This document shows positions 31,774 through 45,915 of a stretch of 64,000 nt of DNA, in pieces; position 1 is the stretch's first letter, and every line of letters starts with the position of its first letter. Source of the DNA: Bacteroidales bacterium (GTDB lineage: Bacteria; Bacillota; Clostridia; Lachnospirales; Lachnospiraceae). Position numbers and translations under genes: made by a program. The stretch spans positions 1 through 64,000 of the forward strand of contig JAMPFJ010000001.1 of the NCBI GenBank assembly GCA_023664535.1, in the 5' to 3' direction. The notes beneath the pieces were generated by a model that searched no databases, was not told where the DNA came from, and saw only the letters and a program-made list of their open reading frames with translations.

Positions 31774-33954
31774 ATGGCGAAGAAGAGAAGACGTTTTCTG
31801 GGCAGAATGCAGTTGAAGCTTTTTGTGGTGGTCGTGACATTAACCATAATATTTTTGGCGTTAATCGGAAGACTTATCTATATCAACGCAAAGGACGGAA
31901 AACGGTATGAAAAGATAGTGCTGGCGCAGCAAAGCTATGACAGTATAGAACTTCCGTACCGGAGAGGCGATATTTTAGACCGGAACGGCACACAGCTTGC
32001 TACTAGTGAGAAGGTCTACAATCTGATTATTGAGCCGAAGAATATTTTACAGAATGATAAAGTGAAAAAGGCAACCATACAGGCATTGGTAAAATATTTT
32101 GACTTGACGGAGGAAGAGATTAACAAAGCCTTAGAGAATACAACGTCACTGTACAAAAAAATGTTAAAATCGCTTGCCTATGAACAGGTGAAGCCCTTTA
32201 ATGATTTTCTGGAGACAGATGAGGCAAAAAATGTAAAGGGTATCTGGTTTGAGGATGAGTATCAGCGATATTATCCGTACAAATCCCTGGCATGCCATGC
32301 CCTGGGCTTTACGGTAAGCGGAAATGTGGGGCAGGGTGGTCTTGAAGGCTATTACAGTGAGGAATTAAACGGCGTTAACGGAAGAGAATATGCGTATCTG
32401 ACCAAGGACATGACGTTGGAGCGCACGACTAAAGCGCCGATTAACGGATATAACGTAATCTCCACTATTGACGCTAACGCACAAAACATTGTGGAAAAAA
32501 AGATTAGCCAGTTTATGAACGAAACCGGAGCAAAAAATGTATCGGTGCTGGTTATGGACCCGAATTCGGGCGAAGTGCTGGCAATGGCAAATTCCAACAG
32601 CTTTGATTTGAATGAGCCCTATGAAGACAGCGCCATACAATATCTGTTTGAAGACAAATATATTGACTATCTGCTTGCAGACGAGATGAAATCCTATTTT
32701 AAGCCGGAGGAAGGGCAGGAACTATCACCGGAAAAAGCGGCGTTAAAGGCAGTGCTGGAAAACAGGGGAATATCGGCGTCAGAGAGAATGGCAGCGCTTA
32801 CGGAAGATTTTCGTCTGGTGTGCCTGAATAAAGCATGGAGAAATTTTATTATTTCAGACGGGTTTGAACCGGGTTCGACCTATAAAACATTTACCATTTC
32901 CGGAGCGCTGGAGGACAGCATACTGAATGGCGGCGAAAGCTTCTTTTGCGGGGGTGATATGGAAGTGGAGGATTATACTATCCGATGCCACAACCATAGC
33001 GGACACGGGCAGGTTACGGTGGAACAGGCGTTGATGCAGTCCTGTAATGTGGCATTGATGCAGATTGCCAAAAGCGAGGGGAGAACCACCTTTGCAAAAT
33101 ACCAGGATGCATTCGGTTTTGGAAAAGCGACCCATGTGGATTTGTCGGGCGAAGCGGAGGGACTGATTTACGGAGAGGATAAATTAAATCCGGTTGAACT
33201 GGCAACCTCCTCGTTCGGTCAGGGGCTGACCGTAACCATGATGCAGATTGGAACGGCGTTTTGCTCTGTAATCAATGGAGGCGACTACTATGAGCCCCAT
33301 ATGGCAAAGCAGATTGTAGATGAAAACGGCGGAATTATCAATAATATCGAACCTGTGATTTTAAGGAAAACGATTTCGGAGGATACATCGGAATTTATGC
33401 GGAACGCACTGTTTAAGGTGGTGGATTCCGGTACGGCGCAGAAGGCAAAGGTTGAAGGCTATACCATAGGCGGAAAGACCGGTACGGCGGAAAAGCTTCC
33501 CCGCGGCAACGGAAAATATCTGCTGTCCTTTATCGGATTTGCACCGGTGGAAAATCCGCAGGTCGTGGTGTACGTTACGGTGGATGAACCGAATGTGGAG
33601 GACCAGTCAAGCTCCGGGCTTGGCACGATTATTGCGCAAAACATATTTGAGGAATTACTTCCCTATATGAATATATACCAGACGGATACCGGGGAAAGCG
33701 CCGGAGACCCGAATGTCGGAGACCAGATAGCAACACCGATATATGATGGAAATATACCGGAAGAGCAGCTTGGACAGGACATGCAGGTCGAAAGTCCGGA
33801 AACGGGAGAAGGCGCAAATCCGGAAGACGGAAGTACCGAAGCACCGGAAGGAGAGGGTGCCGGAACACCGGAAGGCGGAAGTACTGAAGCGCCGGAAGGT
33901 GGAGAAGGCGCAAACCCGGAGGGCGGAGATGCCGGAGCTCCGGCTGCCGAATAG
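31774..33954 (+). CDS. Class B penicillin-binding protein (first of a tandem pair)
   Basis: Septal or sporulation-type transpeptidase, 726 residues, anchored by a helix at about residues 14-34. The pedestal domain has YRRGDILDRNGTQLA. The transpeptidase motifs are all canonical: EPGSTYK (Ser368 nucleophile), SCN, and GGKTGTAEK. An unusual insertion of about 90 residues (Glu-rich, DEMKSYFKPEEG...) precedes the SxxK motif. No PASTA domain is seen. The last 60 residues are a low-complexity Gly/Glu/Pro/Ala tail with repeated EAPEGG. It cross-links lipid-II-derived glycan made by the FtsW encoded downstream. Confidence 0.93.
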   Translation: MAKKRRRFLGRMQLKLFVVVVTLTIIFLALIGRLIYINAKDGKRYEKIVLAQQSYDSIELPYRRGDILDRNGTQLATSEKVYNLIIEPKNILQNDKVKKATIQALVKYFDLTEEEINKALENTTSLYKKMLKSLAYEQVKPFNDFLETDEAKNVKGIWFEDEYQRYYPYKSLACHALGFTVSGNVGQGGLEGYYSEELNGVNGREYAYLTKDMTLERTTKAPINGYNVISTIDANAQNIVEKKISQFMNETGAKNVSVLVMDPNSGEVLAMANSNSFDLNEPYEDSAIQYLFEDKYIDYLLADEMKSYFKPEEGQELSPEKAALKAVLENRGISASERMAALTEDFRLVCLNKAWRNFIISDGFEPGSTYKTFTISGALEDSILNGGESFFCGGDMEVEDYTIRCHNHSGHGQVTVEQALMQSCNVALMQIAKSEGRTTFAKYQDAFGFGKATHVDLSGEAEGLIYGEDKLNPVELATSSFGQGLTVTMMQIGTAFCSVINGGDYYEPHMAKQIVDENGGIINNIEPVILRKTISEDTSEFMRNALFKVVDSGTAQKAKVEGYTIGGKTGTAEKLPRGNGKYLLSFIGFAPVENPQVVVYVTVDEPNVEDQSSSGLGTIIAQNIFEELLPYMNIYQTDTGESAGDPNVGDQIATPIYDGNIPEEQLGQDMQVESPETGEGANPEDGSTEAPEGEGAGTPEGGSTEAPEGGEGANPEGGDAGAPAAE
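33795..33950 (+). repeat. Low-complexity repeat tail of the first PBP gene
   Basis: Imperfect repeats of GAAGGCGGAAGTACTGAAGC- and GGAGAAGGCGCAAA-type units encode a Gly/Glu/Pro/Ala/Thr tail (ANPEDGSTEAPEGEGAG, TPEGGSTEAPEGG, ANPEGGDAGAP). Confidence 0.8.
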
Positions 33955-43357: not shown

Positions 43358-43391
43358 TTCGACCTTTTTTGAGTGAGGAAACGACTATACT
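43358..43391 (+). promoter_or_regulatory. spoIIGA promoter with a possible Spo0A box
   Basis: TATACT (43386-43391) has no good -35 at 16-18 nt, which is common for activator-dependent promoters. TTCGAC (43358-43363) upstream matches most of the reverse Spo0A box TTCGACAA. Spo0A~P activation of spoIIG is known from Bacillus. Confidence 0.45.
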
Positions 43392-43418: not shown

Positions 43419-44282
43419 TTGCAGATAACTGTTTATCTGGATGTTGTTTTTTTCATCAATTTTACCGTTAATCTTTTTGTTTTATGGTTAACCGGAGTGT
43501 TGCTAAAACAAAAAATAATGATTTGGAGAGTATTTCTTGCCGCATTATCCGGTGCGGCGCTGCTTCTTCCCTGTATTTTATATCCGTTTCTGTTGACGGG
43601 GATTACGGGGGTCGCCCTATGCACGGGAATCAGTATGGGAGCCGTTGCAATCGCCTATGGAAAAAAACATGGGGGATTGATAAAAAAATGGTTCCTGTCC
43701 ACCACGATAATGGTTCTGCTGGGCGGTATCATGAATTATATAAAAAGTATAACGGGTATAATGTCCCTGTCTTTTTCTTTTTGGCTTTTTTTTATGGCGG
43801 TAAGCGGGGGATTAACCGTTTTTTTCATTTACTTATGGAAAAGGATGGTACATAAGGAAAGGGTTATTTATCTTATTAAAATCAGACATAATCAGAACCT
43901 GCGGTTTGAGCATCTTTATCTGGATACGGGGAACATGCTCTGGGACCCGTTGTTTTCCAAACCGGTGATTGTGTTAAGTGAGAGTGTGATATATAGTGTT
44001 CTGACGGATGAGGAAAGGGAGTTTGTTGAAGAGTACCGGAAAAACGGACGGATGAATTATGAAAAAATGATGCTGCCGGAAATACAAAAGAGAGTTTGCT
44101 TTCATGAGATAGCATGTGCAAGCGTAGGAAATTTGTCGGGAAAAATGCTTTGTTTTCTGATAGATGAAATTACGGTTGAGGATACGGGACGAATATTGAA
44201 AAGACAGCCGGTGGTAATCGGACCGGAGGGATTGTTTAACACAAAAAGGTATCAGGGCTTACTGCATAGAGAGTGCATCTGA
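43419..44282 (+). CDS. spoIIGA: Sigma-E processing peptidase SpoIIGA
   Basis: Membrane aspartic protease, 287 residues, that cuts the pro-sequence from pro-SigE after polar septation. Five hydrophobic segments fill residues 5-150. The cytosolic catalytic domain carries YLDTGN with the Asp of the DTG motif (near residue 170), then PVIVLSE, and ends with [11 protein letters not shown]. Start TTG 43419 after a strong AGGAGGTG. The end overlaps the open frame of sigE; the true sigE start is 17 nt later, so the two genes form the spoIIG operon. Confidence 0.93.
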
Positions 44283-44299: not shown

Positions 44300-45040
44300 A
44301 TGGTGAATATAGTCGGTAATGATAAGTTAAAGCTTACCATGATGAGAAATATGGCAAGCATGTTTTTTATGCCAAAAAAAGAGATACATTATATTGGCGG
44401 AGCGGATATTCTGCCGCCGCCGCTGGAACCGGAAGAGGAAAGGGAGCTGTTGGAAAAGCTTGGACAGATAGACGATACGGAGGTAAAAAGTATATTGATT
44501 GAGCGGAATCTCCGGCTGGTAGTGTATATAGCCAAAAAATTTGACAATACCGGCGTAGGAGTGGAGGATTTAATCTCAATCGGGACAATCGGCCTGATAA
44601 AAGCGATTAACACGTTTAAACTGGATAAGAAAATTAAGCTTGCCACTTATGCGTCAAGGTGTATTGAGAATGAAATACTGATGTATCTGCGGAGAAGTGC
44701 AAAAACTAAGGTAGAGGTCTCGATTGACGAGCCGTTAAATGTGGACTGGGACGGAAATGAACTTTTACTATCTGATATTTTAGGTACGGAAGAGGATATT
44801 ATTTACCGTGATTTGGAGGATGAGGTTGATAAAGAATTGTTAAAAAAGGCAATGACGGTACTGACCGACAGGGAGAAAAAGATAATTGACTTAAGATTTG
44901 GCCTGAATAATGAGAACGGGGATGAGATGACGCAGAAGGAGGTGGCGGATTTGCTGGGGATTTCCCAGTCTTATATTTCGAGGCTTGAGAAAAAGATTAT
45001 GAAGAGGCTCAAAAGGGAGATGTTAAGAATCGGCTCATAA
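44300..45040 (+). CDS. sigE: RNA polymerase sporulation sigma factor SigE
   Basis: Mother-cell sigma factor, 246 residues, made as a pro-protein and activated by SpoIIGA. The N-terminal pro-region (about 25-30 residues, [15 protein letters not shown]) precedes [14 protein letters not shown]. Region 2 has [35 protein letters not shown] and [19 protein letters not shown]; region 4 has [15 protein letters not shown] and the helix-turn-helix [28 protein letters not shown] before ATG 44300 fixes the start; an in-frame GTG at 44273 lies inside spoIIGA. Confidence 0.96.
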
Positions 45041-45098
45041 CTTTTTTGGAAAGTATTGGCGAAATTCAAGTTGAATAAATCGGGTTTCATTGGTGAAT

Positions 45099-45128
45099 CC
45101 TTAAAACTATAGAACAGTTTTAAGGAGG
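45099..45128 (+). promoter_or_regulatory. Hairpin covering the sigG Shine-Dalgarno
   Basis: CCTTAAAACT (45099-45108) is a perfect inverse of AGTTTTAAGG (45116-45125), with a 7-nt loop. The right arm contains the first part of the ribosome site AAGGAGG (45122-45128). In the mRNA this would hide the ribosome site. A comparable sigG leader hairpin lowers translation in Bacillus subtilis. Confidence 0.8.
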
Positions 45129-45135
45129 ACGTGAT

Positions 45136-45915
45136 ATGGCACTCAATAAAGTCGTAATCTGTGGAGTAAATACGGCAAAGCTTCCGCTTCTTACCAACGA
45201 AGAGAAAAACGAATTGTTTATCCGGATTGAACAGGGGGATAAGCAGGCGAGAGAGCAGTTGATTGAAGGTAATTTAAGGCTTGTATTAAGTGTCATTCAG
45301 CGGTTTGCCGCATCATCGGAAAATGCGGATGATTTGTTTCAGGTTGGCTGCATTGGTCTGATGAAGGCGATAGATAATTTTGACCGGAGTTTAAATGTTA
45401 AATTTTCTACTTACGCCGTGCCGATGATTATCGGCGAGTGCAGGAGGTATTTAAGGGATAATAACGTGATAAGGGTGTCCCGTTCCCTGCGGGATATTGC
45501 GTATAAGGCAATTTATGCAAAGGAGAGGATGTTAAGGGAGGAGGACAGGGAGCCTACCATTGACGAGGTAGCAAGGGAAATTGAAATGGAAAAGGAAATG
45601 GTGGTGATGGCGTTGGATGCCATTGCAACACCGGTTTCCCTGTATGACCCGGTATACCAGGAGGGAGGAGATACCCTCTATATTATGGACCAGGTAAGCG
45701 ATAAAAAGAACAGGGAAGAAAATTGGATAGAGGATATTTCACTGAAAGAAGCAATGAAAAAATTGTCGGAGAGGGAGTATAATATTATCAGGCTCAGGTT
45801 TTTTGAGGGAAAAACCCAGACAGAGGTTGCAGATGAGATTGCGATTTCCCAGGCACAGGTATCAAGACTGGAGAAATCGGCATTAAAAAGCATGAAAAAT
45901 TATTTGGATATTTAA
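45136..45915 (+). CDS. sigG: RNA polymerase sporulation sigma factor SigG
   Basis: Late forespore sigma factor, 259 residues. The family start MALNKVVICGVNTAKLPLLT is diagnostic. Region 2: GNLRLVLSVIQRFA, DLFQVGCIGLMKAIDNFD, VKFSTYAVPMIIGECRRYLRD; region 4: LSEREYNIIRLRFFEGKTQTEVADEIAISQAQVSRLEK. No pro-sequence. It follows sigE by 95 nt, so read-through from spoIIG is likely. A TGAATA at 45072 could be a -35 for a forespore sigma factor, but the -10 match is weak. The leader hairpin described separately should limit translation. Confidence 0.97.
   Translation: MALNKVVICGVNTAKLPLLTNEEKNELFIRIEQGDKQAREQLIEGNLRLVLSVIQRFAASSENADDLFQVGCIGLMKAIDNFDRSLNVKFSTYAVPMIIGECRRYLRDNNVIRVSRSLRDIAYKAIYAKERMLREEDREPTIDEVAREIEMEKEMVVMALDAIATPVSLYDPVYQEGGDTLYIMDQVSDKKNREENWIEDISLKEAMKKLSEREYNIIRLRFFEGKTQTEVADEIAISQAQVSRLEKSALKSMKNYLDI

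Follow-up and report, generated by a model that had tools for sequence, protein, structure and literature searches.

The position of sigG in this Lachnospiraceae genome raises the question of how the product of a gene that sits in an operon active in the wrong cell is kept from being made there. When produced in the wrong cell, a sigma factor may be toxic or throw development off course, and earlier work had left open how the clostridial read-through message is silenced. In the window, by which is meant the whole 64,000-nt stretch of DNA that was analysed, sigG (45136..45915, plus strand; NF006071 equivalog above cut-off) starts with ATG at 45136 and lies directly 3' of spoIIGA and sigE across a terminator-free gap, which is the arrangement of the B. 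subtilis type. Assignment of sigE (44300..45040, plus strand) follows from TIGR02835/NF006158 above cut-off, and that of spoIIGA, the pro-SigE protease gene (43419..44282, plus strand, TTG start), from its position together with a weak match to TIGR02854 (E 2.5e-26) under the curated cut-off. Upstream of spoIIGA, the 0A-box-like TTCGACC (43358-43364) and TATACT (43386-43391) form a motif pair that marks a probable Spo0A-controlled spoIIG promoter (43358..43391, plus strand) and candidate source of read-through. Most of 18 congeners also have the TTCGAC...TATACT pair upstream of spoIIGA, and the arrangement is consistent with a Spo0A-driven promoter giving read-through into sigG. No terminator-like site was found by a scan of the sequence between sigE and sigG, and because spoIIGA-sigE lies upstream and a terminator is absent, polymerase could run into sigG.

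A sporulation cascade is plausible in this organism, since SASP genes, a SigF-like gene and a tandem of two Spo0A-like genes are present in its genome. The tandem Spo0A-family genes (G000:C11:166197-166967 and 167094-167876; L290 and L291) both exceed the curated cut-off, and within the window FtsZ was also identified by a curated model. Named relatives are for the most part uncultured Lachnospiraceae.

About 57 nt downstream of the sigE end (stop at 45040) begins a perfect inverted repeat that covers the sigG ribosome site. Its 5' arm, TCCTTAAAACT (45098..45108, plus strand), and its 3' arm, AGTTTTAAGGA (45116..45126, plus strand), form 11 bp around a 7-nt loop, ATAGAAC (45109..45115, plus strand). 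The sigG Shine-Dalgarno sequence is AAGGAGG (45122..45128, plus strand), of which AAGGA (5/7) lies in the 3' arm and is paired with the anti-SD TCCTT that opens the 5' arm. The sequence-only reading had reported a perfect 10-bp hairpin at 45099-45128 taking in AAGG of the AAGGAGG; its existence and position are confirmed, while the pair T45098-A45126 lengthens the stem to 11 bp and the paired stretch of the ribosome site by one base, to AAGGA. Among the 57 leaders of the window, that of sigG is alone in having such a stem (the runner-up perfect ribosome-site stem measures 7 bp), and none of 2000 shuffles of the sigG leader reached 10 bp. The segment 45060-45180 folds with a minimum free energy of -25.6 kcal/mol (z -2.6 against shuffles). 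Scored on the segment from the -10 box to the start codon, the interaction energy between the 5' side and the ribosome-site side is -10.6 kcal/mol, where shuffled 5' sides give -4.9 +/- 1.8 kcal/mol (p=0.005); this measure superseded a base-pair count with a longer 5' segment, which gave p=0.2 on the window leader. Rfam covariance models, including those of riboswitches and thermometers, had no match above gathering score on 44900-45300.

The bearing of this hairpin on sigG depends on where it lies relative to the sigG promoter. A promoter of the forespore type, GAATA-N15-GTGAATCCTT, is present between sigE and sigG, with its -35 element GAATA at 45073..45077 and its -10 element GTGAATCCTT at 45093..45102, both on the plus strand and separated by a 15-nt spacer. 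It is the sole perfect match in the genome to GNATA-N15-GTNAATCMTT, and the matches with one mismatch elsewhere in the genome are mostly not upstream of genes. For comparison, 228 distinct sigG leaders were assembled; they came from the genus, from the family at one genome per genus, from the class, and from named genome contigs. The form GNATA-N15-GTRAATCMTT was found before sigG in 216 of them, as opposed to 3 of 228 after shuffling; these same 228 leaders were the training set of the promoter matrix, and position and contrast therefore weigh more than score. The 5' arm opens with the last five bases of the -10 box, exactly those that pair with the Shine-Dalgarno sequence. Forespore transcription of sigG would, judging from the position of the -10 box, start about 7 nt past it, in the loop near 45109 (about 45107-45112). 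The stem thus pairs the ribosome site and requires sequence upstream of the predicted sigG start; with -10 box sequence in the 5' arm, a message born at the sigG promoter should lack that arm and be unable to fold the hairpin. Opening the Shine-Dalgarno sequence is calculated to cost 7-10 kcal/mol in RNA with the whole hairpin, as opposed to 3.4-4.3 kcal/mol for starts from 45102 on and 3.4 kcal/mol for those at 45108 or later, and because this cost is low for any such start the exact start base is immaterial to the conclusion. RNA of 45109-45180 shows only weak pairing of the ribosome site and folds no better than shuffles (z -0.6). The sequence-only reading had held a sole sigG start downstream of 45108 to be incompatible with its proposal; the predicted forespore start does fall there, near 45109, but it should not give the only message, since read-through RNA is also expected.

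With a probability of roughly 0.83, the hairpin serves as a filter of transcript origin, locking the sigG Shine-Dalgarno sequence in RNA that has been read through from spoIIG and being absent from the forespore message. RNA polymerase that sets out from the Spo0A-type spoIIG promoter, which is on in the mother cell and before septation, could enter sigG, and in the resulting long RNA the sigG -10 box, copied as RNA, would pair with the sigG Shine-Dalgarno sequence and block ribosome entry. In the forespore, RNA polymerase with SigF, and later SigG, would initiate at the sigG promoter downstream of the -10 box, and the RNA, being without the anti-SD arm, would be translated. One sequence would hence have two roles, as a promoter element in DNA and as a translational lock in RNA. 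Of this picture, the hairpin with its covariation, the promoter, the overlap of the two and the tie to neighbour orientation are computational results; the precise start, the occurrence of read-through in this organism and the block to translation are inferred.

Conservation of the stem was followed within the genus and beyond it. The sequence-only reading had suggested surveying clostridial sigG leaders for compensatory changes, and these are present: across 21 leaders from the genus, pairing of the stem is retained through 24 double-sided changes against 8.9 expected, a number reached in 0 of 500 shuffles. Within that alignment 90% of cells are paired, and slid controls are much lower. The pairs next to the -10 box, which join it to the Shine-Dalgarno sequence, are nearly invariant in the genus while the distal pairs covary, and they hardly vary, as expected, because this sequence has two jobs; their variation appears only between genera. 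There, CCTT -10 boxes stand opposite AAGG in the Shine-Dalgarno sequence and CATT -10 boxes pair with AATGATTC, AATG(ATTC), immediately before GGAGG, such that the sequence differs and the complementarity stays. The two arms of a leader pair better with each other than do arms exchanged between species, both at sigE-adjacent loci (p=2e-9) and at other loci with a co-directional upstream gene (p=5e-10), with a smaller effect at divergent loci (p=1e-5). Of 133 significant hairpins, 119 use the -10 box as 5' arm and 129 pair the Shine-Dalgarno sequence or the start codon; species differ in register, in the length of the arms and in that of the loop (from a few nt to more than 80), with complementarity retained. 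Several leaders (L023/L032, L058, L066, L105 and L189) carry long inserts between the arms, some of them structured, and the arms are still complementary. The expectation that the device is general in Clostridia is thus borne out by complementarity and compensatory changes across leaders.

The gene that precedes sigG is not the same throughout the survey. In more than half of the collected leaders sigG does not follow sigE, and at the Lachnospiraceae loci L034-L196 it lies mostly away from spoIIGA-sigE, beside many unrelated genes. Across Clostridia, complementarity between the -10 box and the ribosome site is kept where the upstream gene is co-directional and largely lost where it is divergent. 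The mean z is -1.7 with sigE upstream (n=93), -2.1 with another co-directional gene (n=63) and -0.6 with a divergent gene (n=57), and co-directional and divergent loci differ with p=1e-6 in a Mann-Whitney U test and with p=1.4e-5 when one genome is taken per genus. Phylogenetic generalised least squares gives p=6.7e-5, with about 35 parsimony changes of neighbour orientation on the tree. Upstream genes were called heuristically for this comparison, and stricter gene-length cuts widen the contrast (z -2.5 vs -0.8). The co-directional neighbours other than sigE, named from recognisable sequence and not from curated models, are unrelated to one another and include an MBL exonuclease, NAPRT, a CoA ligase, CoaX and an ABC ATPase. 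Still, 18% of the divergent loci have p<=0.05. For sigE-adjacent leaders from outside Lachnospiraceae, a 60-nt test that allows the whole promoter region as 5' arm gives 56% as significant; hairpins there with their 5' arm in the promoter spacer had been overlooked by the test confined to the -10 box. At the sigE-adjacent leaders L204-L208, L222, L229 and L232, from other clostridial families, a hairpin was not detected, and these may have other means of silencing, or none.

The dependence on orientation fits insulation from read-through, because neither a brake acting in the forespore nor a DNA operator predicts such a dependence, although the link could in principle follow some other feature of co-directional neighbours. 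The likely role of the hairpin is to protect sigG against read-through at the wrong time or in the wrong cell, and not to slow the forespore programme. The sequence-only reading had taken the latter view, namely that a hairpin within the forespore sigG message damps translation and so delays the late forespore programme, and there is a precedent for it in the 5-bp ribosome-site hairpin that lowers translation 2-4-fold in the promoter-born message of B. subtilis (Mearls 2018, PMC5942855). Here, however, the 5' arm shares 5 nt with the -10 box and extends to about the predicted start, RNA from 45109 has no more structure than its shuffles, and a brake in the forespore has no reason to track the orientation of the upstream gene. 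The companion features of the B. subtilis case are also absent, the spacer being 15 and not 14 nt and the start codon ATG and not GTG, and the proposal of damping is abandoned as very unlikely.

Three further explanations were weighed and turned down. A terminator, or a stabiliser of the 3' end of the upstream mRNA, would track co-directional neighbours just as insulation does, and a spoIIGA-sigE transcript exists in C. acetobutylicum and B. subtilis (PMC3789822); yet the 3' arm is followed by GGACGTGATATG with no T run, a scan for intrinsic terminators found none, a T run follows only 4 of the 133 hairpins, and 3' arms fall on the Shine-Dalgarno sequence or start codon and 5' arms on the -10 box. 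This role is even less probable than a brake, with a minor stabilising effect on spoIIG mRNA being possible. That the repeat is instead a DNA operator, placed over the promoter for a repressor or activator, might be proposed from its perfect symmetry and its extent from the -10 box through the ribosome site. Sequence, arm and loop lengths and register vary while complementarity stays, however, and this, together with 3' arms that end at the Shine-Dalgarno sequence or start codon in 129 of the 133 hairpins and with the dependence on neighbour orientation, leaves an operator slightly less credible again. Complementarity by mere chance, the CCTT of the -10 box and the AAGG of the Shine-Dalgarno sequence each being a fixed motif, has in its favour that CCTT-type -10 boxes are inherently complementary to the ribosome site, but it would have to produce 11 perfect pairs where no shuffle made even 10, covariation of distal pairs lying outside both motifs, and the matching AATG(ATTC) before GGAGG in lineages with CATT -10 boxes. 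The hairpin is, moreover, mostly missing from divergent loci, which share the promoter and the Shine-Dalgarno sequence, and chance is the least believable of all these explanations.

Insulation of sigG from read-through has a counterpart in B. subtilis, where two structures of the sigG leader have been told apart, a small one of 5 bp within the message from the sigG promoter and a large read-through hairpin (Mearls 2018, PMC5942855). According to that account of the earlier work (Masuda 1988; Sun 1991, cited in PMC5942855), the large hairpin occurs in spoIIG read-through RNA only and was proposed in 1988/1991 to block translation of sigG from it; sigG RNA that arises early by read-through is stated to go untranslated in B. 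subtilis (Jones 2008, PMC2530871). For B. subtilis and C. acetobutylicum, RNAs spanning spoIIGA-sigE-sigG, spoIIGA-sigE and sigG have been described, and for C. difficile two promoters, with the comment that the fine tuning of the locus needs more study (Saujet 2013, PMC3789822). The sequence-only reading had looked to B. subtilis for a counterpart of different sequence, and such a counterpart exists, but it is not the small damping hairpin that had been named. Both that hairpin and the window structure occlude the sigG ribosome site; the former forms in the promoter-born message, whereas the latter, with the -10 box in its 5' arm, needs sequence upstream of the start. The large spoIIIG (sigG) hairpin of B. 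subtilis, as it is described in the citing paper, likewise lies between sigE and sigG and is confined to read-through RNA, whose translation it was proposed to block, and differs in having more than 20 bp, as opposed to a compact 11 bp of other sequence with the -10 box in the 5' arm. The clostridial hairpin thus belongs with the known read-through hairpin of B. subtilis, and what is new is the comparative evidence for its function.

Analogous arrangements are known outside sporulation. In phage T4 gene e and I-TevI, the long early RNA hides the Shine-Dalgarno sequence, the 5' arm harbours, at the DNA level, a late promoter, and the late RNA escapes the hairpin and is translated (PMC3014915, PMC2988022). 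The likeness to sigG, with the gene's own promoter in the 5' arm and the Shine-Dalgarno sequence in the 3' arm, is one of mechanism, without homology: the promoters are phage late promoters, and the T4 switch is between early and late, unlike that of the window sigG, which would be between the predivisional or mother cell and the forespore. A hairpin in the IS10/Tn10 transposase gene also blocks translation of RNA from external promoters, and this is a gene of a mobile element and, unlike sigG, encodes no developmental sigma factor.

The SASP genes of the genus provide a related observation. One of them, for which the upstream gene was called co-directional at 15 of 16 loci, shows a hairpin over the ribosome site at every one of the 16, each with p<0.01. 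For its paralog, where the neighbour is divergent at 12 of 13 loci, none of the 13 shows such a hairpin; the family-wide SASP contrast goes in the same direction and is not significant (p=0.11). In the present genome the former gene is L299 (G000:C4 near 32953-33108, minus strand; orthologs among L314-L328), in which a long AGTTCCC...GGGAACT hairpin with an inner palindrome sequesters the ribosome site; the paralog L298, with its divergent neighbour, is without this hairpin. Leaders of both SASP genes (L298-L313; in L298 at about 1420-1455) contain CAAATAMTAT followed by a palindrome, e.g. ACAACATgaaaATGTTGT or AAGACATgagaATGTCTT, which may be part of the promoter or an operator. These SASP observations are a lead and not a result. 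Arms with a dual use, as promoter and as anti-SD, could be a general insulation device of clostridial forespore genes, built or kept by selection where the neighbour is co-directional and otherwise decaying, a tentative proposal with the odds somewhat against it.

For sigG itself, the survey offers a concrete mechanism by which a read-through message could be silenced, and the approximately 35 changes of orientation amount to a natural experiment in which the structure tracks possible read-through. It also corrects the impression, gained from promoter-born leaders alone, that ribosome-site hairpins of sigG are uncommon in Clostridia. An old observation from Bacillus is thereby extended to gut Clostridia with new evolutionary evidence.
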